DNA of 27,758 nt from a virus, in IMG/VR virus record IMGVR_UViG_3300042939_000072, positions 1 to 27,758 of that record. One strand, 5' to 3'. How positions within the stretch are numbered: the first letter of the stretch is position 1; each line of letters starts with the position of its first letter. A program made the position numbers and the translations under genes. The notes beneath the pieces were generated by a model. The model was not told the origin of the DNA. It made no database searches and saw only the letters and a list, made by a program, of their open reading frames with translations. Of this stretch, positions 1 to 27,146 are shown in pieces.

Positions 1-219
1 AGGCGAATGTATTGGGAGTACGTTGATCTTTGCGTCGAACTAAACCCAAGTAGTTTTCTGCCGGTCGGCGTCAAGAAGCAGTGGTGGCACTTCTTGAAGA
101 TCGAACACCCAGAGACTAGTCGGAGCCGCAGCGACATATCGCATCCTATTTGGCCCCCACCGCAGTCGAGGCCAGCGGAGACACGGCAGGCGTTACGGGC
201 GGCTGGAGTTGAGCAATAG
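1..219 (+). CDS. C-terminal part of an unidentified upstream gene (cut by the window edge)
   Basis: Reading frame 1 is open from the first base to a TAG at 217-219, giving 72 residues. A Met codon at base 7 could be a start, but the frame continues to the left edge, so this is more likely the end of a longer protein. The sequence has aromatic-rich stretches (MYWEYVDL, KQWWHFLKIEHPE) and a Pro/Arg-rich tail, which is common at the ends of enzymes. I recognise no family. It lies on the same strand as everything else and is followed by a 163-base gap. It could also be a chance open frame. Confidence 0.35.
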   Translation, partial: RRMYWEYVDLCVELNPSSFLPVGVKKQWWHFLKIEHPETSRSRSDISHPIWPPPQSRPAETRQALRAAGVEQ

Positions 220-382
220 AACTAGTGAATACGCGGACCCGTATATCTGCAATAACGCAGCGGCCCGCTTGTCGCCACTCGCGACATGACCCCCGAACGT
301 ATGTCAAAAGCGACGAAAAGCGATCACGTTCTCGTATGATCCTGGCGGCCTGATTGCTTGACACGCCAGTCACCATAGCGGC
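220..382 (+). promoter_or_regulatory. Intergenic region with short hairpin and direct repeats; possible regulatory region
   Basis: This gap holds a small hairpin (GTCGC 271-275, loop CACTC, GCGAC 281-285), a longer-range inverted repeat (GAACGT 295-300 with ACGTTC 326-331) and a direct repeat of AAAAGCGA (306-313 and 316-323, period 10). A TTGACA occurs at 358-363, but no convincing -10 box lies 17 bases after it before the next start codon. It is one of the largest non-coding stretches here, so a promoter or operator for the downstream operon is plausible but unproven. Confidence 0.25.
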
Positions 383-1279
383 ATGACCACCATCACGCTT
401 GACGAGATCGAGCGGCATCATCCCGACGTGCTGCTGCCGCCCGACGCGGAGTTCGCAGACCAGTACGCGAGCGACGTGGGCCTCGGCCGACGCCGCGCTG
501 CTTCCAAGAGCGTGGCCTTCGTCGCCATCTGCCGCAACGCGATGCCGTGGTTGCCTCGCACACTGGAACTGGTCGAGCAGACCGGGGCGATGTTTCGCGA
601 GTGGTCGTGCTTCATCTACGAGAACGACTCGACGGACGAAACGAAGGACGTGCTCAAGGCGTGGAGCGATGGGCAGCAGCGGCACGCAAGCCTCAACGAC
701 AACGGCAGGCCGCATCTCAACTACACGACTCACCGCGTTCGGACAGTCGCACTGGCCGAGTACCGAAAGGCGTGTCAGCAGTTCGTGCGAGACGGAAAGC
801 AACCCGACTATGTGATTGTGTTTGATACCGACCCGTGGGGTGGCTGGAGCGTGGACGGCGTTGCCAACTCGGTCGCATGGCTTGAGCGAGACAGCAGCCT
901 GTACGGTCTGGCATCGTATTCGTGGGGCGAGTGGGGCGAGCATCGCATCCACTACGATGCCTTCGCCGCACGGCTCAATCACTGGCAGCAACGCGACCAG
1001 CAGTGGTTCCATCACTGGCATCCTGCCGTTGGTTCGCCTCCCATCGAGTTTCGCTCCGCGTTCGGTCAGTTGGCGATCTACCGGACAGGGCGGTATCTGG
1101 AAGGGACGTATCGCGGCGATGACTGCGAACACGTCTGCTTCCACCGCAGCATCGAGGTTGCGGCCTCGTTCGACGAGGGCGACTACTACCACGGGGCCAG
1201 CCACACGCGGCTCGCGATCAACCCGTCCATGCGATGCGTGTCGTTCTGGCATCCCGACGAGGCCAAGCATGGCGGGTGA
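383..1279 (+). CDS. GT-A fold glycosyltransferase
   Basis: The 298-residue protein has the layout of an inverting GT-A (GT2-like or CAP59-like) glycosyltransferase. An N-terminal strand (SVAFVAICRN, about 43-52) leads into a nucleotide-binding loop YENDSTDET (79-87). A DxD motif follows in VFDTDPWGG (D148, D150), which in this fold coordinates the metal and the nucleotide sugar. The C-terminal half is rich in Trp, His and Tyr, as in acceptor-binding regions. No signal peptide or membrane segment is seen, so it should be cytosolic. The start ATG lacks a clear Shine-Dalgarno. The gene overlaps the next one by 11 bases. In a phage the acceptor could be modified DNA bases, a virion protein or a host surface glycan; the sequence does not decide this. 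Confidence 0.75.
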   Translation: MTTITLDEIERHHPDVLLPPDAEFADQYASDVGLGRRRAASKSVAFVAICRNAMPWLPRTLELVEQTGAMFREWSCFIYENDSTDETKDVLKAWSDGQQRHASLNDNGRPHLNYTTHRVRTVALAEYRKACQQFVRDGKQPDYVIVFDTDPWGGWSVDGVANSVAWLERDSSLYGLASYSWGEWGEHRIHYDAFAARLNHWQQRDQQWFHHWHPAVGSPPIEFRSAFGQLAIYRTGRYLEGTYRGDDCEHVCFHRSIEVAASFDEGDYYHGASHTRLAINPSMRCVSFWHPDEAKHGG

Positions 1280-1670
1280 CACGTCACGGATCGACCTTGC
1301 AACGCTGAAAGTCCAGTGGGCTAGCCATTCCTCATACGCCGCGCTCTGCTCATTCTGGACCGTGACCCGCGAGCAGATCATCCGCCTCAAGCACGTCCTG
1401 CCGCTGCCTCCGAGGCACGACCGACGGCTGAGGTTCCGCCCGCCACGCAACGAGAAGCCAACGCCAGAGGAAATCGCCGCGTCGGAGTCCAGCCTGTCAT
1501 TGGCTCCGATGGTCGCCGCACGGGCAACGTGTGTGACATCACAGTGGACGGACGAAATCCGGCTCCAGCGTCAGGTCACCAAGCCAACAGGATTTCGCAT
1601 GGAGCCTGTCGAAACGCCCGAGGAACTGCGGGATGTGTTCTACGACTTGAACCGTGAAAGCCAGTGGTAA
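1269..1670 (+). CDS. Small protein with a helix-turn-helix-like N-terminus
   Basis: This 133-residue protein starts at an ATG inside the end of the glycosyltransferase gene (11-base overlap), which points to translational coupling. Residues about 9-45 (LATLKVQWASHSSYAALCSF, then WTVTREQIIRLKHVLPLPPR) have the spacing of a homeodomain-like HTH of the GcrA or resolvase type. Here a Trp precedes helix 1 and the recognition helix is followed by Leu-Pro-x-Arg. The remainder is basic and then acidic, with QWTDEIRLQRQ near residues 100-110. It is probably a DNA-binding regulator or an accessory packaging factor. The HTH is a judgement by eye, and no exact family is recognised. Confidence 0.55.
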   Translation: MAGDTSRIDLATLKVQWASHSSYAALCSFWTVTREQIIRLKHVLPLPPRHDRRLRFRPPRNEKPTPEEIAASESSLSLAPMVAARATCVTSQWTDEIRLQRQVTKPTGFRMEPVETPEELRDVFYDLNRESQW

Positions 1671-1729
1671 GGGCTGCAAGGGGAGGCACTTCATTTGAGA
1701 AAAAAGAGTGATCCCCGAGGACACCATAG

Positions 1730-2281
1730 ATGATTTCGTTTTTGCTCATCGTTGCTGCGGCAGCGATGTTCTTCGGCATCGACGCGGACAAACTCAAGGC
1801 ACTTCTTGAGGCAGTCAAGCCGCACGTCGATTACCGCAAGTTTCTTGGTCTCGGCCTCGTCTGCCTAGCGTTGCTCATGCTGCCTTCGTGGGGTCGCAGC
1901 AACGTGCCTCCGCAGCCGTTGCCAGACACCGGGCCGCTCTCGCTGGAGGGAGACTTCCGTGGTGAAACAGCCAGCCAAGACGCAGCGACCGTTGGTTGCC
2001 TCCTGACCGAACTGGCCGATGAACTTGAGTGGGACGGTTCGCTCAGCGAACCGTTCTACGTCACTGGGTCGCAGATCGACCAACTCCGCAAGACCTCCCG
2101 CATCCTTCGCTGTCGAGGAGAAAGCATCGGCGATCGCCAGCCAGCCGCACGCGACAAGATCGCTGAGTATCTGGAAGTCCATGTTGGCACGGATGGCGGT
2201 CCACTGACGCCAGAGAGCCGCGATGCTTGGGTGTCGGCGTTCCGCGATGTAGGGAGGGCGGCAAGTGACGCAGCGCAGTAA
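1730..2281 (+). CDS. Membrane protein of unknown function, possibly part of a lysis cassette
   Basis: The 183-residue protein begins with a hydrophobic segment (MISFLLIVAAAAMFFGI, 1-17). A second transmembrane-like stretch lies near 38-52 (FLGLGLVCLALLMLP), with a short amphipathic region between them (KLKALLEAVKPHVDYRK). The rest is soluble, acidic and Ala-rich, and is followed by the gene for a membrane-anchored protease. GAGG at 1717-1720 lies 9 bases upstream of the ATG and is an acceptable ribosome-binding site. It overlaps the next gene by 17 bases. Two N-terminal membrane segments next to a hydrolase would fit a holin-like role, but there is no family match to prove it. Confidence 0.6.
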   Translation: MISFLLIVAAAAMFFGIDADKLKALLEAVKPHVDYRKFLGLGLVCLALLMLPSWGRSNVPPQPLPDTGPLSLEGDFRGETASQDAATVGCLLTELADELEWDGSLSEPFYVTGSQIDQLRKTSRILRCRGESIGDRQPAARDKIAEYLEVHVGTDGGPLTPESRDAWVSAFRDVGRAASDAAQ

Positions 2282-3389
2282 CGGGTCGTGGACTCTTTCG
2301 GCCATCTCCTTCGTCATCTTTGCGGCGGCTCTCGGCACGTTGGTCAGCCGATACGTCGGAATCCTTGCTGATCGTGTCGAGAACAACTTCGGCTATCTGC
2401 CAGACCCTGAAGGCACGGCTGAGTTCCTTGGGGAACTCGACCAGCCAAGATTCGCACAGGCTGGCAAGGACTGCATGGACAACGTGGTCAAGCAGGACAC
2501 GTTTCTTTACCGCTACGCAGACGAGGCTCATCGGTCCGTCTACGGCAAGCCGTTCACAGCGTGGGACCAAGGCTCCGCTGGAACCTGTGTCTCGTTTGGA
2601 TGGGGGGTGGGCTCCTACATCGGGCAGTCTGTGTCGTGGAAGCAGGGAGAACTTCCAGCCCCACCGAAACTGGTCGCGACCGAACCGATCTATGGAGGGA
2701 GTCGCACGCTTGCTAGGCTTCCTCCCGTCACGTTCGCAGGATACAGCGACGGATCATACGGTGCTGCCGCTGCCAGATGGGTGGCTGGCCGATGCAAAGA
2801 CAAGGAAGTCGGAGGCATCCTGTATCGGGAGGTCATTGGCAAGTACGACCTGACCCGCTACTCGATTGAACGCTCCCGTGAATGGGGAGCGAACGGGCCA
2901 CCGCGAGAGATCGCAACCGCTGCATCCAACCATCGTGCGCTCGCCGTGGCACAGGTTTCGACGTGGGACGAGTTGGTTGCTGCGATCACGTCAGGGTATT
3001 GCGTCCCGATCTGCTCAGACGTTGGATTCGCCGCCACGAAAACTCGAGACAAGGATGGCTTCCTTCCTCGCGGCGGCAACTGGTCTCACTGTATGTGCTG
3101 CATCTCAATTCGCTTCGCGGACGGTCCCGGGAAGCGTGACGGAGTTCTGATCCTCAACTCGTGGAACACCACATGGGTGAACGGGCCGAAGTGGCCCGCT
3201 GATCAGCCTGACGGTTCGTTCTGGTGTTCGCGGGCTGATATCGAAGCGATTCTTCGTCAGGGCGATTCGTTCGCGATTGGTGGCGTGTCTGGATTCCCTT
3301 GGCGAAAACTGGAGCATCGAGAATGGATGTCGCCGTCTCCGCAGGCGTCGAGCCGCGAGTCAACGATCAACCACGCGCTCGCACTGTGA
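2265..3389 (+). CDS. Membrane-anchored papain-family (C1-like) cysteine protease
   Basis: The 374-residue protein carries the catalytic signature of a papain-fold cysteine peptidase. Gln102 in WDQGSAGTC matches the oxyanion Gln, with Cys108 as nucleophile. His275 in GGNWSHCMCC is the general base, and Asn298 in LILNSWNTTW matches the usual NSW motif. One hydrophobic helix at about 11-29 should anchor it in the membrane or act as a signal-anchor. The GTG start at 2265 overlaps the upstream stop, as is common in this operon. It sits among small membrane proteins, so it may act as a lytic enzyme, a virion protease or a host-surface-cleaving enzyme. C1A-type proteases are unusual among phage lysins, which are more often NlpC/P60 or CHAP members of the broader papain-like fold. 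Catalytic assignment is firm; role is inferred. Confidence 0.75.
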   Translation: MTQRSNGSWTLSAISFVIFAAALGTLVSRYVGILADRVENNFGYLPDPEGTAEFLGELDQPRFAQAGKDCMDNVVKQDTFLYRYADEAHRSVYGKPFTAWDQGSAGTCVSFGWGVGSYIGQSVSWKQGELPAPPKLVATEPIYGGSRTLARLPPVTFAGYSDGSYGAAAARWVAGRCKDKEVGGILYREVIGKYDLTRYSIERSREWGANGPPREIATAASNHRALAVAQVSTWDELVAAITSGYCVPICSDVGFAATKTRDKDGFLPRGGNWSHCMCCISIRFADGPGKRDGVLILNSWNTTWVNGPKWPADQPDGSFWCSRADIEAILRQGDSFAIGGVSGFPWRKLEHREWMSPSPQASSRESTINHALAL

Positions 3390-3628
3390 CGCGTAACACG
3401 TTCGTCGCCGCGTGCCTTGCGTGCCTTGTCGCAGGGTACTTGGTTGCGTGCGCTCCCGGCTTCGATCCGCTCAATCCGTTCGTGCCGAAGCACGACCGAC
3501 CTGTGCTGCGTTTCCTGCAACGGATGGCGAAACTCGGTTTGTGGGTTGCGGTGTTCGCTGACCCGCCTCCTGTGCAGGAGCGGGTCTATCGCGGTCAAGG
3601 AAATATCTGTCACTCGGAGGGCTGGTGA
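3386..3628 (+). CDS. Small membrane protein of unknown function
   Basis: An 80-residue protein starts at a GTG that overlaps the protease stop codon (GTGA at 3386-3389). An ATG at 3323 is an alternative start, but it would overlap the protease by 67 bases. Residues 5-22 (TFVAACLACLVAGYLVAC) form one hydrophobic helix. Residues about 48-58 (AKLGLWVAVFA) form a second, shorter one, separated by a Pro-rich linker (APGFDPLNPFVPKHDRP). The size and topology resemble small phage membrane proteins such as holins or spanin components. No family is recognised. Confidence 0.6.
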   Translation: MTRNTFVAACLACLVAGYLVACAPGFDPLNPFVPKHDRPVLRFLQRMAKLGLWVAVFADPPPVQERVYRGQGNICHSEGW

Positions 3629-3629
3629 A

Positions 3630-3881
3630 ATGATTAGCGTGATCGTCTGGTTGGTGTTTGGCTGGATCGCTGGCTCGGTCGCTGAGTGGCTGTGGCCTCC
3701 CGCTGCACCGCGTTCCAAGTTCGTGACGATTGGCATCGGCGTCGCTGGCTCGGTCGCTGGCGGACTTGTGGGGTCTGTTATCACTGGAAGCAACTACGCT
3801 CCCGGTGGTTTGATCCTGAGCGTCGCCGGGGCGTTGCTCTGTATGTTCGTCTGGAAGAAATACAACGAGGCCAGCGTATGA
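3630..3881 (+). CDS. GlsB/YeaQ/YmgE-like (transglycosylase-associated) small membrane protein
   Basis: The 83-residue protein is nearly all hydrophobic and has three membrane segments: ISVIVWLVFGWIAGSVAEW (2-20), VTIGIGVAGSVAGGLVGSVI (32-51) and LILSVAGALLCMFVW (61-75). The WLVFGWIAGSVA opening, the central glycine-rich G-xxG-xxGG helix and the terminal LxxxGA helix match the layout of the GlsB/YeaQ/YmgE (Transgly_assoc) family. That family is normally a chromosomal stress-response membrane protein. Inside this cassette it may be co-opted as a holin or anti-holin. GGAGG at 3616-3620 lies about 9 bases before the ATG. Its stop overlaps the next start (ATGA). Confidence 0.65.
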   Translation: MISVIVWLVFGWIAGSVAEWLWPPAAPRSKFVTIGIGVAGSVAGGLVGSVITGSNYAPGGLILSVAGALLCMFVWKKYNEASV

Positions 3882-6317: not shown

Positions 6318-6950
6318 ATGAACATCCGCAACCGCGTCAAAACGCTCCGTATGGTCCCTGCCAGCGACCTCCGGCCCAACCCCAAGAACTGGCGAACGCA
6401 TCCCAAGGCACAGCAAGACGCCTTGCGTGGTGTGCTGTCGGAGATCGGGCTGGCGGATGCCTGCCTCGCACGGGAGTTGCCGGATGGATCGCTGATGCTG
6501 ATCGACGGGCATCTCCGCGCGGAGACGCTTGGAGACGGAGACGTTCCTGTGCTGGTGCTGGACGTGAACGAAGCCGAAGCAGACAAACTCCTTGCGACCC
6601 TTGATCCGCTGGCTTCCATGGCGGATTCCGACGCCGCACGGTTTGAGGAACTGCTTCACACGGTGAACACCAGTAGCCAAGCCTTGCAGGAGTTGATCGC
6701 GGAGACTGCCAAGCAAGCCGGTCTGTACGAGAATCTGGACGAGCCGGAATCGGAGGAAGCCGAGCCGAGCGAAGGCGATGATTCCACCGATCCGCCTCCG
6801 AGCGGCGTCCGGATGGTGCAGTTGTTCCTTGACGAGTCGACCATCGACGAGTTCCAGGACTCTTGCACCAAACTCGCGGAGGAGTACGCGACCGAGAACA
6901 TTACCGACACGGTTCTGGAGGCTGTGCGACGTGCAAGTGCATCACTGTAA
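6318..6950 (+). CDS. ParB/sulfiredoxin-fold (ParB-like nuclease domain) protein
   Basis: The 210-residue protein opens with a ParB-like N-terminal domain: DLRPNPKNWRTHP (17-29), a short helix (AQQDALRGVLSEIGL), then LIDGHLRAET (61-70). The last motif is the counterpart of the ParB GERR box. It is followed by VPVLVLDVNEAEADKLLATLDPL, typical of phage and methylase-linked ParB-like proteins. The second half is acidic and Ser/Glu-rich (about 125-160), ending in a small helical domain. Such proteins occur in phage DNA-modification gene clusters and near terminases, where they may nick or bind modified DNA; Iyer and colleagues noted ParB-superfamily genes beside TET/JBP genes. The start ATG at 6318 is chosen because the domain begins right after it. 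It overlaps the next gene by 20 bases. Confidence 0.8.
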   Translation: MNIRNRVKTLRMVPASDLRPNPKNWRTHPKAQQDALRGVLSEIGLADACLARELPDGSLMLIDGHLRAETLGDGDVPVLVLDVNEAEADKLLATLDPLASMADSDAARFEELLHTVNTSSQALQELIAETAKQAGLYENLDEPESEEAEPSEGDDSTDPPPSGVRMVQLFLDESTIDEFQDSCTKLAEEYATENITDTVLEAVRRASASL

Positions 6951-7857
6951 GGCGAAGTTCGACGCGGACCACCTTGCCGGGACAAAACTGGATGAGTCGC
7001 ACTACGACGTGCTGCTCGGCGGTGATGAACCTTGCGACGTGTTCAAGCCAGACGGAACACCGCTGGTCAAGTACCGTCCGCAGTGGTTCAGCAGCGAGTT
7101 GTGCCGATCCGTCCTGCCAGCGTGCCGAGCCGCAGCCACCGAGACCGACCAGCGTGGGCTGGCGGCTGGCGACCTTTCCACAGTCAAACTGCGGAAGCGT
7201 GACGCCGCGTTGCAAGGACCGCACGGCAAGACAAGCCTGCGAGCCATCAAGACTGATGGCACGGTCAGCAACACCACGCGAGCAGGGCTCGTCAACAGCG
7301 GCATCATCGGCTACTTCGACAGGAGCGCACGGTATCCGTTCTGCAGGCAGACTTCCTTCGTGATCAAGGAGGCTGCATCGTGGAAACGGTTCCTTCCGTA
7401 CATCGAGCGAGCCGACGAAGGATTCCGCGAGTTCATGCCGGATCGCTGGTCAGCACAGCGTGAATACTCGAGCCGCACGGCATCGGACTGGGTGATTCCG
7501 CAAAGCACGTTCACAACGGTCACGGTCAACAAGAACTTCCAGACCGCGACACACAAGGACGCTGGAGACCTTGCGTGCGGCTTCGGCGTGATGTCCTGCC
7601 TGCGGAACGACAAGTACGACGGAGCGCATCTCGTGTTTCCGGCGTACCGCGTCGCGGTCAACCTCGGTCACGGCTGCCTGTGTCTCGCAGATGTGCATGA
7701 GTGGCACAGCAACACGTCGTTCACACGGATGCGAGTCGGCTACGAGCGGATCACGCTGGTGTTCTACTACCGAGAGAACATGATCCACTGCAAAGACGCG
7801 AAGGCAGAAGTGAACCGCGTGAAGAACCGCAAGAGAGGGGATCCGCTGCACCGATGA
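6931..7857 (+). CDS. TET/JBP-family 2-oxoglutarate, Fe(II)-dependent DNA base dioxygenase
   Basis: The GTG start at 6931 gives 308 residues. The protein has the family hallmarks in order: GYFDRSARYPFCRQTSF (127-143), then FTTVTVNKNFQTATHKDAGD (194-213) with the iron-binding HxD pair His208/Asp210. LVFPAYRVAVNLGHG follows, then LADVHEWHSN (252-261) carrying the distal iron His (His256 or His259). Last come Arg273 and the strand YERITLVFYYRENM, where the Arg would bind 2-oxoglutarate. These enzymes hydroxylate the 5-methyl of thymine or 5-methylcytosine in DNA. All ligands look intact, so it should be active. It sits between a ParB-like gene and a glycosyltransferase, a known type of phage hypermodification neighbourhood. 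No cytosine methyltransferase or pyrimidine hydroxymethylase is visible, so the substrate is undetermined. Confidence 0.87.
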   Translation: MQVHHCKAKFDADHLAGTKLDESHYDVLLGGDEPCDVFKPDGTPLVKYRPQWFSSELCRSVLPACRAAATETDQRGLAAGDLSTVKLRKRDAALQGPHGKTSLRAIKTDGTVSNTTRAGLVNSGIIGYFDRSARYPFCRQTSFVIKEAASWKRFLPYIERADEGFREFMPDRWSAQREYSSRTASDWVIPQSTFTTVTVNKNFQTATHKDAGDLACGFGVMSCLRNDKYDGAHLVFPAYRVAVNLGHGCLCLADVHEWHSNTSFTRMRVGYERITLVFYYRENMIHCKDAKAEVNRVKNRKRGDPLHR

Positions 7858-8723
7858 AAGTTTTTGTTTTCACCTACGACCGCTACGACTCAATCAGCAC
7901 GCCGCTGCTGCTCGACAAGAGCAACGTCCCTCACGTTGTCTTGTGCCACAGCGAGGAGTCGCGGAAGCGGTTCGTTGACGGCGGCAGGGTCAAGCAGGAA
8001 AACATCGTCGCCACCAAACAGCCGAAGGGGCTGGCGAACAACCGGAACGCCGCACTCGACATGATGGACGATGGTGAGTGGGCTGTGTTCTTTGTTGACG
8101 ATTTGAAGTCCGTCACGGAACTGCGCGACTACGACGCGAGGAAGTCCACCCGCCTCGGCATTTCGATGGACAACCAATCATCGTTCAAGGGGATCTTTGC
8201 CAAGGAGATCCCGCTCAGTCAGTTCATGCGGCGTGCGTATGAAACCACCGCAGCCTGCGAAGGCGTCGGAGCCAGCCTCGGCGGCTTCTGCGGCATTTCC
8301 AACTCGGTCTTTCGCGATGCCAAGTGGCGGTTCAACGTCCTTGCCGATGGGCGAGCGTGGGTCGTGAAGAAAACATCGCTCCGCTTCGACACCAACGCTC
8401 AACTCATTGACGATCTGTGCTGGACAGCCCGCAACATACAGCGGTTCGGTTGCGTGGTTGTGAATCAGTGGGTGCTGCCAGACTGCAAGCGATACACATC
8501 CGGGGCATACGGAAGCATCGAGCAGCGGATGCCGCAGAAACTCAAAGAGGCTGCCCACCTTGTGAAAACATATCCATCCTTGATCCGCATCGCGGATAAG
8601 GCTGGATGGCCGCGTGGTAGTCATGTTGTGCTTAAGAGAACGCTGAACAACAAGCAGATCGCAGCGTGCGAAGCCGCTGTCATCTCGGCGACTCGCCGTT
8701 TCGCACCTCCCCCTCCGTGGTGA
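7854..8723 (+). CDS. GT-A-like glycosyltransferase linked to the TET/JBP enzyme (TAGT-like)
   Basis: The 289-residue protein begins at an ATGA overlap with the dioxygenase gene, so the two are probably co-translated. It opens with a Rossmann-like strand and loop VFVFTYDRYD (3-12), typical of GT-A enzymes. KGLANNRNAALDMM (58-71) follows, then AVFFVDDLKSV (77-87), where Asp82-Asp83 replace a DxD. This order (TxxR, GLxxxRN, DDD-like) resembles the TET/JBP-associated glycosyltransferase (TAGT) family described by Iyer and colleagues, but exact membership needs a profile search. Its likely job is to transfer a sugar to 5-hydroxymethyl pyrimidines made by the neighbouring dioxygenase, protecting phage DNA from host nucleases. 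No membrane segment is present. A virion-protein glycosyltransferase is the alternative. Confidence 0.72.
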   Translation: MKVFVFTYDRYDSISTPLLLDKSNVPHVVLCHSEESRKRFVDGGRVKQENIVATKQPKGLANNRNAALDMMDDGEWAVFFVDDLKSVTELRDYDARKSTRLGISMDNQSSFKGIFAKEIPLSQFMRRAYETTAACEGVGASLGGFCGISNSVFRDAKWRFNVLADGRAWVVKKTSLRFDTNAQLIDDLCWTARNIQRFGCVVVNQWVLPDCKRYTSGAYGSIEQRMPQKLKEAAHLVKTYPSLIRIADKAGWPRGSHVVLKRTLNNKQIAACEAAVISATRRFAPPPPW

Positions 8724-8727
8724 AATC

Positions 8728-9255
8728 ATGGGCAAGCGTGGACCCGCGCCAGAACCGTCGATCCTGAAATACATTCGCGGCAATCCGTCCAAGGAGACGC
8801 TTCCTGCCAACGAGCCAACGCCTCCGCTCATGCCGCAGGACTTCCCGCCACCGAAGGCACTGGACGGCAAGTGCATCGAAGTCTGGAAGGAATCCGTGCA
8901 GACGTTGTCGCGGATGCGGGTGCTGACCGAGGCAGACATTCCGACGCTGACTCGCTACTGCATCGAAACGGTTCTGTACCTTGCGTGCTATGAGAAGGTG
9001 AAGATCGCAGGCGAGGAATACACACACTGGGAGCCAGACCCGAACCGCACGGACGGCAAGATGCGGATCAAGTACACGCAAGTTGCTCCGTGGGCAACAC
9101 AGATGCACCGCCATCACGCTGCGATGCTGCGGATCGAGCAAGAGTTCGGCATGACGCCGAGCAGCAGGTCACAGGTTTCAACGACGAATGGCAACGAAGA
9201 TACAGACCCGGTTGCCGCCTACGCTGCAAAGCGACGCCGCTCGTCAGGGGCTTGA
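8728..9255 (+). CDS. terS: Terminase small subunit, P27-like
   Basis: The 175-residue protein starts with MGKRGPAPEPSILKYIRGNP and a Pro-rich linker (NEPTPPLMPQDFPPP), the signature opening of the P27/HK97-type small terminase. A helical body follows (LDGKCIEVWKESVQTLSR, LTEADIPTLTRYCIETVLYL) and a C-terminal helix (MHRHHAAMLRIEQEFGMTP) that resembles the oligomerisation and terL-contact region. Its role is to recognise the packaging site and load the large subunit. An insertion near 90-115 (GEEYTHWEPDPNRTDGKM) replaces the shorter loop usual in the family. It overlaps terL by 68 bases, longer than the usual 4-20. Confidence 0.9.
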   Translation: MGKRGPAPEPSILKYIRGNPSKETLPANEPTPPLMPQDFPPPKALDGKCIEVWKESVQTLSRMRVLTEADIPTLTRYCIETVLYLACYEKVKIAGEEYTHWEPDPNRTDGKMRIKYTQVAPWATQMHRHHAAMLRIEQEFGMTPSSRSQVSTTNGNEDTDPVAAYAAKRRRSSGA

Positions 9256-10795
9256 CTACTACTTCGATCCAGAGGCAGCGCAGCACGCGGTCAACTTCTT
9301 TGAAGAATGGCTGCGACACAGCAAAGGCAAGCACGCTGGCAAGCCGTTCACGCTGCTTGAGTGGCAGACCGTGATGATTGGTGAGTTGTTCGGCTGGAAG
9401 CGGATGGACGATCACACTCGTCGCTTCCGCGTGGCCTACATCTCCACAGCAAAGAAGCAGGGGAAGTCCACGCTTCTTGCTGGCATCGGCCTGTATCTGC
9501 TCGTGATGGACGGCGAGAACGGGGCTGAAGTCTACGGAGCGGCTGCGGACCGAGAGCAGGCGTCGGTCGTGTATCGCGAAGCCGCGAGCATGGTTCGGGC
9601 CTCACCGCAACTCTCCCGCGTGCTGGAGGTCATCGACTCTCGCCGCACGATTGCCTACCGCAAGGAAGCGTCGTTCTACCGCGTCCTTTCAGCCGACGCG
9701 TTCCGCGCGGAAGGCTTGAACATTCACGGGCTGCTCTTTGACGAACTCCACGCCCAAAAGGATCGCAGGCTGTGGGACGCGCTCCGGTACGGTGGTGCAG
9801 CACGCGAGCAGCCTCTCCTCGTCTCGATCACGACGGCGGGCTACGACCGGAAAGGAATCTGCTACGAGCAGTACCAGTATGCGAAGGCAGTCGCGGCGAA
9901 CTGGAAGCACGATCCCACGTTCTTCTCCTGCATCTACGAAATGGAGGATGAATCTGATTGGAAAGACCCCGACGTGTGGCCTCAGGCGAATCCGTCGTGG
10001 GGCGTGACGATCAAGCCGAACGACTTCGCACTGGACGCAAGAGAAGCCGAGCAGTCGCCAACCAAACTCAACTCCTTCCTGCGATACCGGCTGAACACTT
10101 GGACATCATCCGACGTGCGGTGGCTGTCACCGGAGGTGTGGGAGCAGGGGTCCGTTCCGCTCCGGGACTTCGGGGATCGTCCTGTCTACGCTGGCCTTGA
10201 CCTTGCCACCACATACGACCTTACCGCGTTGGTTCTGGTCTGCCCTGACCCGGAGGACGGAAGCCTCGACGTGCTGCCGTTCTTCTGGATTCCAGAGGCG
10301 AACGCCGTGGAGCGAACCACTCGCGACAAAGTGGACTATCTCGGATGGATACGGGACGGGCATATCCGCGTGACCAACGGAAACGTCACGGATTACACCG
10401 TGCTGCACCGCGATCTCGCGGCGATCTGCGAGCAATACAAGGTTCGGCAACTGGCCGTGGACTTGAAGTTCAACGGGCAGATGATCGCTAATATGCTGCA
10501 AGGGGATGGGGTGGACGTAAGAGGATATCCACAGGGTGGTCGCGCCATGAGCGCGCCTGCCAAGGCACTGGAGAACCTTCTAGCCAACTCAAAAATCCGT
10601 CACGCTGGTCATCCCGTGCTGTCGTGGTGTGCCGGAAACGTCGCTGTCCATGAGGACCGATACGGAAACATTTATCCGAGCAAGGCAAAGTCAACGGAGC
10701 GCATCGACGGCATCGTGGCGTTGTGCCAAGGGATCGGGAGTTGGGTCGGAAGCGAGCAGAAGCCGAACGAATCTCCCGAAATCTTTTTCATATGA
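9188..10795 (+). CDS. terL: Terminase large subunit (Terminase_1, HK97-like)
   Basis: The 535-residue protein is a two-domain packaging motor. The ATPase has a Walker A-like P-loop STAKKQGKS (86-94), a Walker B LLFDE (182-186, Glu186 catalytic) and a coupling motif SITTAG (213-218). The RNase H-like nuclease begins at VYAGLDLATTYDLTALV, with Asp338 as the first metal ligand. A second acidic residue is likely in LAVDLKFNG and another near the C-terminal STERIDGIVAL. It translocates DNA into the prohead and cuts genome ends. The length is typical for the family. The ATG at 9188 is preferred because the domain starts soon after it. It overlaps portal by ATGA at 10792. Confidence 0.94.
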   Translation: MATKIQTRLPPTLQSDAARQGLDYYFDPEAAQHAVNFFEEWLRHSKGKHAGKPFTLLEWQTVMIGELFGWKRMDDHTRRFRVAYISTAKKQGKSTLLAGIGLYLLVMDGENGAEVYGAAADREQASVVYREAASMVRASPQLSRVLEVIDSRRTIAYRKEASFYRVLSADAFRAEGLNIHGLLFDELHAQKDRRLWDALRYGGAAREQPLLVSITTAGYDRKGICYEQYQYAKAVAANWKHDPTFFSCIYEMEDESDWKDPDVWPQANPSWGVTIKPNDFALDAREAEQSPTKLNSFLRYRLNTWTSSDVRWLSPEVWEQGSVPLRDFGDRPVYAGLDLATTYDLTALVLVCPDPEDGSLDVLPFFWIPEANAVERTTRDKVDYLGWIRDGHIRVTNGNVTDYTVLHRDLAAICEQYKVRQLAVDLKFNGQMIANMLQGDGVDVRGYPQGGRAMSAPAKALENLLANSKIRHAGHPVLSWCAGNVAVHEDRYGNIYPSKAKSTERIDGIVALCQGIGSWVGSEQKPNESPEIFFI

Positions 10796-15863: not shown

Positions 15864-16595
15864 ATGCTCGTTCAAGTTGGCGGATCGTCGGTTGAGGTGC
15901 GGTGCGAGGCGATCCTGAGCGGGCCACGCTTCGGCCCGCTGATCAACATCTTTGGCTTCATCGAAGCGATGATGCCGTTGCACATCCGCCCGACGCTTGG
16001 GCAGGGTGCGTTCTGGAGTCAAGTGCTCACGCGGATGCTGGAGAAGTTTGAGCCGACCACGGAATACATCATCACGCTGGACATGGATTCCTTCGTGAGC
16101 CGCGAGAACATCGAGCATCTGTTCGCGCTTGCCATGACTTTCCAGTGCGATGCACTCGCGCCAATCCAAACCAAACGCGAGGACGGCAGGCCGATGCTCA
16201 CGCTGCTGGACACGCTCGACAACCCGCCCGAAGGCGGCGTGACGCAAGTGCCGAAAGAGTGGTTTGGTCACCCGGTGCAGCAAGTGGACACCGCTCACTT
16301 CGGCTGCACGATCATCTCGACCGCCGCCCTGCGACGCATGGCGAAGCCGTGGTTTCACGAGCAGCCCGGCCCTGACGGACGGTGGGACGAAGGAAGGACA
16401 GACTCCGACATCTCGTTCTGGAGGCAGTTCAAGGCGTGCGGCAATCGCCTCTACATCACGCCGCGAGTGGCAATCGGCCACGGCGAGTACGTCATCACAT
16501 GGCCGAGTCAGGAACTCGGGAAGCCCGTGTTCCAATACTGCAACGAGTGGCAGGAAACCCGCAAGCCGCCAGCCTCTGCATGGAAGGTAGAGTAA
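15864..16595 (+). CDS. GT-A glycosyltransferase within the virion operon
   Basis: The 243-residue protein has a GT-A core. A strand with YIITLDMDSFVSRENIEHLF (68-87) contains the DxD (Asp73, Asp75) for metal/nucleotide-sugar binding. Later come VDTAHFGCTIISTAALRRMA (acceptor-binding loop) and DSDISFWRQFKACGNRLYITPRVAIGHGEYV, typical of phage-encoded transferases of this fold. It has no signal or membrane segment. It lies between the capsid terminator and the head-tail connector genes, an odd place for a sugar enzyme. Capsid or decoration-protein glycosylation is therefore as plausible as DNA modification. The opening MLVQVGG suggests the start is correct. Confidence 0.75.
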   Translation: MLVQVGGSSVEVRCEAILSGPRFGPLINIFGFIEAMMPLHIRPTLGQGAFWSQVLTRMLEKFEPTTEYIITLDMDSFVSRENIEHLFALAMTFQCDALAPIQTKREDGRPMLTLLDTLDNPPEGGVTQVPKEWFGHPVQQVDTAHFGCTIISTAALRRMAKPWFHEQPGPDGRWDEGRTDSDISFWRQFKACGNRLYITPRVAIGHGEYVITWPSQELGKPVFQYCNEWQETRKPPASAWKVE

Positions 16596-26381: not shown

Positions 26382-27146
26382 ATGACGCTCGTACTCAAGG
26401 CTGGAGCGATCATTGTTGAAGGTGGACTCCTCGGCGCAGGGCAAGACTGCTGCTGCGGTTCGTCCTCATCGAGTAGCAGTTCGTCCTCATCGAGCAGTAG
26501 TTCGTCCTCATCGTCCAGTAGTTCGTCCTCGTCGAGCAGTAGTTCGTCATCGTCCAGTGACTCGTCCTCGTCGAGCAGTAGTTCGTCATCGTCTAGCAGT
26601 TCGTCATCGTCAAGCAGTGACTCGTCCTCGTCCAGCGGCTCGTCCTCGTCCAGCGGCTCGTCCTCGTCCAGTGGCTCGTCCTCGTCCAGCAGTGGGAGCA
26701 GTTCCTCATCTGCATCCGTGGAATGCACTACCGACGGAGACTGCGGATGCGAGCCTGGATACACCTACTATCCAGAGGCGGCGGGGAGTGGACACAGCGG
26801 ATGCTGCCCGCCCGGATCGTACTATGAAACCGGGCATGGCTGCTGGAATGGCGAGCCCGGAACAGAAACGGCGGCTGGCGAGAGTCGATTCTGCTGCTGC
26901 GGCAAATGCGGGCCAGCGTATCTCCCGCAGCCTGCGTCTGACGGCTCGACTCCGTGCCGAAAGTGCTCGATCTGTAAAGGCGAAGGACACGCTGGCGGGC
27001 CTTTCGCAGACTTCATTTCAATGCTTGACGCATACGCTGCGCTCGGTGTTTCTACGCCACTGTCTGAAGTCCTGTGCAGTGACGGGTTTTATTTTGAAAC
27101 GTGCGAGTTTGAGTTTGACCCAAACAATCCGAACAACTGCCCGTGA
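26382..27146 (+). CDS. Poly-serine stalk protein with a cysteine-rich C-terminal domain
   Basis: The 254-residue protein has a short N-terminal segment with hydrophobic residues (LKAGAIIVEGGLLGAG) and a CCCG motif. A serine tract of about 85 residues follows (27-111), broken by occasional Asp and Gly. The C-terminal domain is Cys-rich (about 20 Cys, in CGCEPGYTYY, CCPPGSYYETGHGC, FCCCGKCGPAYL, CRKCSICKGEG), probably disulfide-bonded or zinc-binding. A stiff, possibly O-glycosylated stalk with a Cys-rich knob would fit a surface-exposed tail-tip protein. The Ser codons alternate between TCN and AGY in 18-21-base units, so the tract is repeat DNA but selected at protein level. No known family is recognised. 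Confidence 0.7.
   Translation: MTLVLKAGAIIVEGGLLGAGQDCCCGSSSSSSSSSSSSSSSSSSSSSSSSSSSSSSSSSDSSSSSSSSSSSSSSSSSSSDSSSSSGSSSSSGSSSSSGSSSSSSGSSSSSASVECTTDGDCGCEPGYTYYPEAAGSGHSGCCPPGSYYETGHGCWNGEPGTETAAGESRFCCCGKCGPAYLPQPASDGSTPCRKCSICKGEGHAGGPFADFISMLDAYAALGVSTPLSEVLCSDGFYFETCEFEFDPNNPNNCP
26460..26711 (+). repeat. Serine-coding tandem repeat (18- and 21-base units)
   Basis: The tract is built of units such as TCGTCCTCATCGAGCAGTAGT (a seven-codon form) and TCGTCCTCGTCCAGCGGC (a six-codon form). They alternate TCN and AGY serine codons, with GAC and GGC interruptions. The period is a multiple of three, so length changes keep the frame. This could vary among related phages by slippage or recombination. 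Confidence 0.75.

Follow-up and report, generated by a model that had tools for sequence, protein, structure and literature searches.

Which chemistry is encoded by the short gene cluster that stands directly ahead of the terminase genes in an uncultured phage, and on which base of the DNA would it act? The window analysed here, meaning the whole stretch of 27,758 nucleotides from an incomplete 27.8-kb IMG/VR record, carries a ParB-like gene, a dioxygenase gene and a glycosyltransferase gene in immediate succession. An earlier note had read them, from the nucleotide letters, as a module for glycosylated 5-hydroxymethyl pyrimidines in phage DNA. Profile searches and the gene neighbourhoods of relatives both speak in favour, and this is still the best reading of the locus.

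Gene organization

The ParB-like gene (6318..6950, + strand; 210 aa, ParB/sulfiredoxin-like) ends with a stop codon at 6948-6950, past the GTG start of the TET/JBP dioxygenase gene (TET; 6931..7857, + strand; 308 aa), to give an overlap of 20 bases; a GGAGG sequence lies 9 bases 5' of this GTG. The stop codon of TET and the ATG (7854) of the TAGT-like, putatively GT-A-type glycosyltransferase gene (GT; 7854..8723, + strand; 289 aa) share the letters ATGA, hence overlap by 4 bases. The coordinates, starts and stops of the reading frames thus agree with the earlier description of three overlapping genes 5' of the terminase. The terminase small subunit (TerS; 8728..9255, + strand; Terminase_4, 7.9e-17) and large subunit (TerL; 9188..10795, + strand; TerL_nuclease, 2.7e-41; TerL_ATPase, 2.6e-29) follow. 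Relatives conserve the gene order. The best terminase relatives, mainly from Streptococcus and gut phages, are only ~44% identical and uninformative on the host. Comparison of the window with related locus L004 indicates purifying selection on all three genes (dN/dS of ~0.11 for ParB, ~0.11 for TET and ~0.06 for GT). At the GT-TerS junction, a search for mRNA folding found nothing (z +1.0).

The dioxygenase

Assignment of the dioxygenase to the TET/JBP family is firm on the basis of profile, catalytic residues and predicted fold. The protein matches Pfam Tet_JBP clearly over the cut-off (E=1.8e-21; 76.5 bits against 34.9), as the earlier note had anticipated; all 24 aligned TET relatives match the profile as well, and the 14 control genomes gave no match in any case (14/14). 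Its AlphaFold model (pLDDT 87.6) matches TET2 best (Z 22.0, 261 residues aligned); NgTet1 gives Z 19.4, compared to ~14 for the best non-TET entries. The Fe ligands H208, D210 and H259 and the 2OG-binding R273, mapped on TET2, are invariant in the 24 relatives; by alignment, we take their TET2 equivalents to be H1382, D1384, H1881 and R1896, respectively. The HxD motif at 208-210 and R273 are therefore retained from the earlier assignment, and of the two histidines considered there as distal ligand it is H259 that stands, since H256 is replaced by Q or F in distant TETs that keep H259. The putative base-contact positions D213 and R281 differ from N1387/H1904 of TET2. Their use to tell thymine from 5mC was rejected because ADDT-linked TETs vary there too (N/L in LittleMunchkin). 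Relatives of TET occur in at least 562 IMG/VR stretches. Bacterial genomes yielded seven relatives at 32-43% identity, most of them from metagenome bins, which give no indication of the host.

The ParB-like protein

In the proposed operon, the ParB-like protein is a constant accessory of TET and probably serves it as a DNA-binding or loading partner. It matches PHROG_498, a ParB-fused DNA methyltransferase family, at 1.6e-12 and the ParB-like families PHROG_620 and PHROG_723 at 2e-10 and 9e-10; Pfam profiles gave no significant match to it, and tblastn finds that the N-termini of phage DNA methylases resemble it. A ParB match lies immediately 5' of TET in 74 of the 78 TET loci with room for one, and reading of the coordinates adds L013 and L060. 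Its constant pairing with TET, and the existence of phage DNA methyltransferases with a fused ParB domain, lead us to guess at a loading or targeting factor. No ParA partition ATPase was noticed among the window reading frames looked at by eye. Instead of a single ParB-like gene, L008, L015, L017, L020 and L045 have a tandem pair ahead of TET.

The glycosyltransferase

The glycosyltransferase is best described as a putative divergent relative of the TAGT family that falls under the Pfam cut-off. TAGT (PF20691) is matched at E=0.0087 with 16.4 bits, where the cut-off asks for 27.5, and is the sole Pfam family matched by the GT family at all (4 of 6 members, best 4.2e-4); PHROG_842, a DNA glucosyltransferase family, is matched at 4.7e-6. 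Of the check proposed in the earlier note, a TAGT match proper thus did not materialize, and TAGT-likeness with a DNA glucosyltransferase match did. Invariant motifs are RN64-65, DDLK82-85, DGR165-167 and DD186-187. GT shares ~13-15% identity with the TAGTs encoded in L003 and P12024L. Profile-profile comparison with two TAGT sets returned low probabilities of 8.6% and 32.8% (unrelated control, 0.2%), with agreement in the aligned motifs of the N-terminal region. The AlphaFold model, built from 6 sequences, is of low confidence (pLDDT 55.9); its N-terminal half retrieves nucleotide-sugar transferases at Z 7-9, and Foldseek returned nothing <1e-3 for this weak model. Neither the PDB sequences nor the phage collection gave a match to GT.

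The family was found in eight IMG/VR loci, and all but L032, whose contig begins inside GT, have a TET gene in the same record. TET is an immediate neighbour of GT, or present elsewhere in its record, in the window, L004, L005, L007, L028, L029 and L031, and GT recurs beside TETs that are merely 25-30% identical (L029, L031).

Exchange of the decorating enzyme

Related phages keep the ParB-TET pair and exchange the decorating enzyme. The slot between TET and the terminase, with TerS at its far edge, varies in content among related ParB-TET loci; L003, L004 and L006, whose TETs are 93-94% identical, have three different enzymes downstream. A count on the maximum-likelihood tree of 43 TET rows gives no fewer than 15 switches of decorating type; in this tree, three terminal branches are long and 15 of the 39 internal ones are open. 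Synonymous distances between the window and L004 are 0.42 for GT and 0.41 for TerS, compared to 1.06 for ParB, 0.99 for TET and 0.87 for TerL; because of these lower values, GT and TerS seem, on sequence, to have recombined together as one block.

The decorating cassette is a GT of the window type in the window, L004, L005 and L007, a canonical TAGT in L003, L010 and P12024L (P12024L_27), and a small TAGT-like glycosyltransferase in L015 and L017. ADDT together with Ploopntkinase3, sometimes with a PLP enzyme, occupies the slot in L008, L012, L020, L045, L049 and L050, as well as in many loci of 40-46% identity; in the closest clade with ParB-TET followed by ADDT and a P-loop kinase, TET is 62-81% identical to that of the window.

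Further slot types were observed. A 314-aa protein of GT-B look, with no Pfam or PHROG match, is encoded at L006:5970-6914 and also in L036-L041 and L043. A set comprising a radical SAM/SPASM protein, a 300-aa protein and a TAGT-like glycosyltransferase is found at L018:1706-4304 and also in L013, L019, L021, L042 and L044; the 300-aa protein has no Pfam match, contains an RRSGSH motif and is sulfotransferase-like by eye. An FkbM-type methyltransferase lies behind ParB-TET at L009:1724-2416, L048:1821-2501 and 8497-9195 of L022 (HTVC112P), and might O-methylate 5-hydroxymethyluracil (5hmU) to a methoxymethyl base.

Thymine or cytosine as the substrate

The earlier note had left thymine and host-made 5mC side by side as possible substrates. 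The neighbours of related ParB-TET pairs point to thymine; no C5-methyltransferase was found in the window. ADDT denotes amino acid:DNA transferase, which, like the 5hmdU DNA kinase, is an enzyme of thymidine hypermodification. In the same slot behind related ParB-TET pairs, ADDT is matched at 1.2e-22 and 3.9e-13 and Ploopntkinase3 at 7.7e-17 and 4.8e-20. ADDT is present in 21 of 49 related records, compared to none of the 14 control genomes, and Ploopntkinase3 in 10 of 50. The ADDT of L008 has homologues in 386 phage records, of which Salmonella accounts for 162; Shigella phage Ag3 and SKML-39 are among them. In phages M6, ViI and W-14, a kinase phosphorylates 5hmdU in DNA before substitution, and the hypermodified T of Salmonella phage ViI derives from 5hmdU (PMC6449724). 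From its neighbours and the annotation of phage Tonitrus (PMC11955845), we infer 5hmU kinase activity for Ploopntkinase3. The domain is also present in Mycobacterium phage AlanGrant, whose whole 72-kb record gave no Tet_JBP match; there, positions 1-3152 (L107) encode a ParB-methyltransferase-like fusion, a PLP-type enzyme and Ploopntkinase3 consecutively.

A pre-replicative route to 5hmdU was rejected since the thymidylate-synthase-type hydroxymethylase (PF00303) gave no match over the cut-off in 49 records, one sub-threshold match in G045 aside. No source of a 5-hydroxymethyl pyrimidine other than TET is therefore visible.

C5-cytosine methyltransferase was detected in one of 50 related records (L021), noting that records may be fragments, and in none of nine further records, which include Cr30, DLP6, S-CBWM1 and two complete, cultured relatives, Pelagibacter phage HTVC112P and Nonlabens phage P12024L. 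Given the ADDT and kinase of the relatives and this near absence of C5-methyltransferase, the sequence comparisons make thymine a much more likely substrate than host-made 5mC, which is accordingly lowered from first choice; the argument is drawn from the relatives' neighbours, the window's own operon having neither ADDT nor a kinase-like reading frame behind TET. The cytosine version, in which TET would oxidize 5mC laid down by the host or by an off-contig phage methyltransferase and GT would glycosylate the resulting 5hmC, appears unlikely on these same two grounds, the thymidine-type ADDT and kinase beside related ParB-TET pairs and the scarcity of C5-methyltransferase even in complete genomes. 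It draws its strength from precedent: characterized phage TETs, as PMC12730594 summarizes, work on 5mC alongside C5-methyltransferases and glycosyltransferases, and the TAGT of T6-like phages is believed to extend cytosines that already carry glucose (PMC13390438). A methyltransferase gene could also lie outside the incomplete window, and L021 has one such candidate, a 245-aa C5-methyltransferase-like reading frame with PCQ and ENV motifs at about 3108-3840, some 6 kb 5' of ParB-TET.

Proposed mechanism

We consider it probable (about 0.73) that the cluster is a post-replicative operon in which TET makes 5hmU from thymine and GT adds a sugar, with a base-J-like glycosyl-5hmU as the product. 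The phage DNA would first be replicated with ordinary bases. ParB-TET would then hydroxylate the methyl group of some thymines in the replicated DNA to 5hmU, and the TAGT-like GT would glycosylate the 5hmU hydroxyl, drawing on the nucleotide sugars of the host; in the window, a sugar-nucleotide gene was not recognized. The DNA containing glycosyl-5hmU would thereafter be packaged, and the modification may shield it from restriction nucleases. The choice of thymine, the 5hmU intermediate, the transfer of sugar to DNA and the protective effect are all deduced steps of this proposal. The position beside the terminase suggests late expression, with modification just before packaging.

Could the glycosyltransferase share the operon and yet serve another acceptor? 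TET would in that case modify DNA and GT would glycosylate capsid, tail or host envelope, in line with the two more transferase-like genes of the window (383-1279 and 15864-16595) that are maybe for structural or surface glycosylation. We regard this as improbable in view of the 4-base GT/TET overlap, the co-occurrence of GT relatives with distant TETs and the filling of the relatives' slot by other base-decorating enzymes. That the dioxygenase acts on RNA (e.g., tRNA) or demethylates DNA instead of preparing it for decoration is hardly credible, for a weak PHROG match labelled queuine tRNA-ribosyltransferase is probably a mislabel, the 2OG oxygenases of AlkB/FTO type match the fold at Z ~13-14 and are far surpassed by TET2 and NgTet1 (Z 19-22, full length), and the neighbouring ADDT and TAGT enzymes work on bases of DNA; a neighbour for RNA modification was not seen.

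Extending the glycosyl-5hmU proposal to a large family of uncultured phages, we see an even chance that a fixed ParB-TET platform makes 5hmU, that the swapped cassette sets the attached group and that the product of the window is base J or something close to it. The attached groups would comprise several glycosyltransferase products, amino acids and possibly methyl ether or radical-SAM-made groups. If true, closely related phages would differ in DNA chemistry, and the window would supply the first case of glycosylated 5hmU from a phage. Similar platforms that bear different decorations would offer an unusually clean comparison of each decoration's effect on the phage, in simple two- and three-gene sets amenable to tests, and the swappable slot would represent a natural library of 5hmU-DNA decorating enzymes, of use for modification-dependent restriction and for DNA-labelling tools.

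Relation to known systems

Among known systems, the actinobacteriophage ParB-TET-ADDT-kinase operon comes nearest in layout, and base J in chemistry. In the base J pathway of kinetoplastids (trypanosomes), JBP1/2 oxidize T and the glucosyltransferase JGT then completes the modification. The two steps proposed here, T oxidation by a TET/JBP enzyme and glycosylation of 5hmU, are the same; in distinction, the genes of the window are phage-borne, GT is TAGT-like, and a ParB-like protein is extra. Thymine-oxidizing TETs in bacterial viruses would link the kinetoplastid pathway to phage DNA chemistry.

To our knowledge, the phage TETs studied so far act on 5mC. Iyer and co-workers are said to have predicted TET/JBP and TAGT operons in phages in 2013, and Burke et al. 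reportedly described phage 5mC-TET clusters for cytosine hypermodification in 2021. TET, TAGT and hypermodification operons are already known, and the novelty lies in the proposed ParB-TET platform, which would act on thymine and whose decorating enzyme, a glycosyltransferase in the window, can be swapped. The canonical TAGTs (P12024L_27, L003, L010) are likewise TET-linked and align with GT in the N-terminal motif region, from which the sub-threshold score and low identity of GT set it apart. Compared to the thymidine hypermodification systems, the window is without ADDT/aGPT-PPlase and kinase, and the PF00303 route is replaced by the proposed TET. Phage 5mC-TET clusters, as summarized in PMC12730594, similarly combine TET with glycosyltransferases for post-replicative, sugar-decorated pyrimidines, but contain the C5-methyltransferase that is so rare in the window's family.

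The operon of Rhodococcus phage Tonitrus comprises parB, tet-like JBP, aGPT-Pplase2 and 5hmU DNA kinase (PMC11955845). In Tonitrus and in Gordonia phage LittleMunchkin, a ParB-like gene and then TET head the operon, as in the window, and in LittleMunchkin the operon likewise runs into the terminase gene; after TET, however, both have a kinase and an amino-acid/polyamine-type transferase where the window has a glycosyltransferase. The LittleMunchkin TET shares only ~26% identity with the TET of HTVC112P, which belongs to the window's TET family.

Other genes in the window

Upstream of the module are a weak family-2 glycosyltransferase gene (383-1279) and a gene whose product has a papain-like look by eye (2265-3389), both with relatives in L003 and L007. 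A GT-A-like gene with an LDMDS motif (15864-16595) lies shortly 3' of a major-capsid-like gene and is kept at that place in L003, L005, L007, L012 and L017; its product is perhaps involved in virion glycosylation. Near the end of the window, the gene at 26382-27146 encodes a protein in which a cysteine-rich domain comes after a long poly-serine tract.
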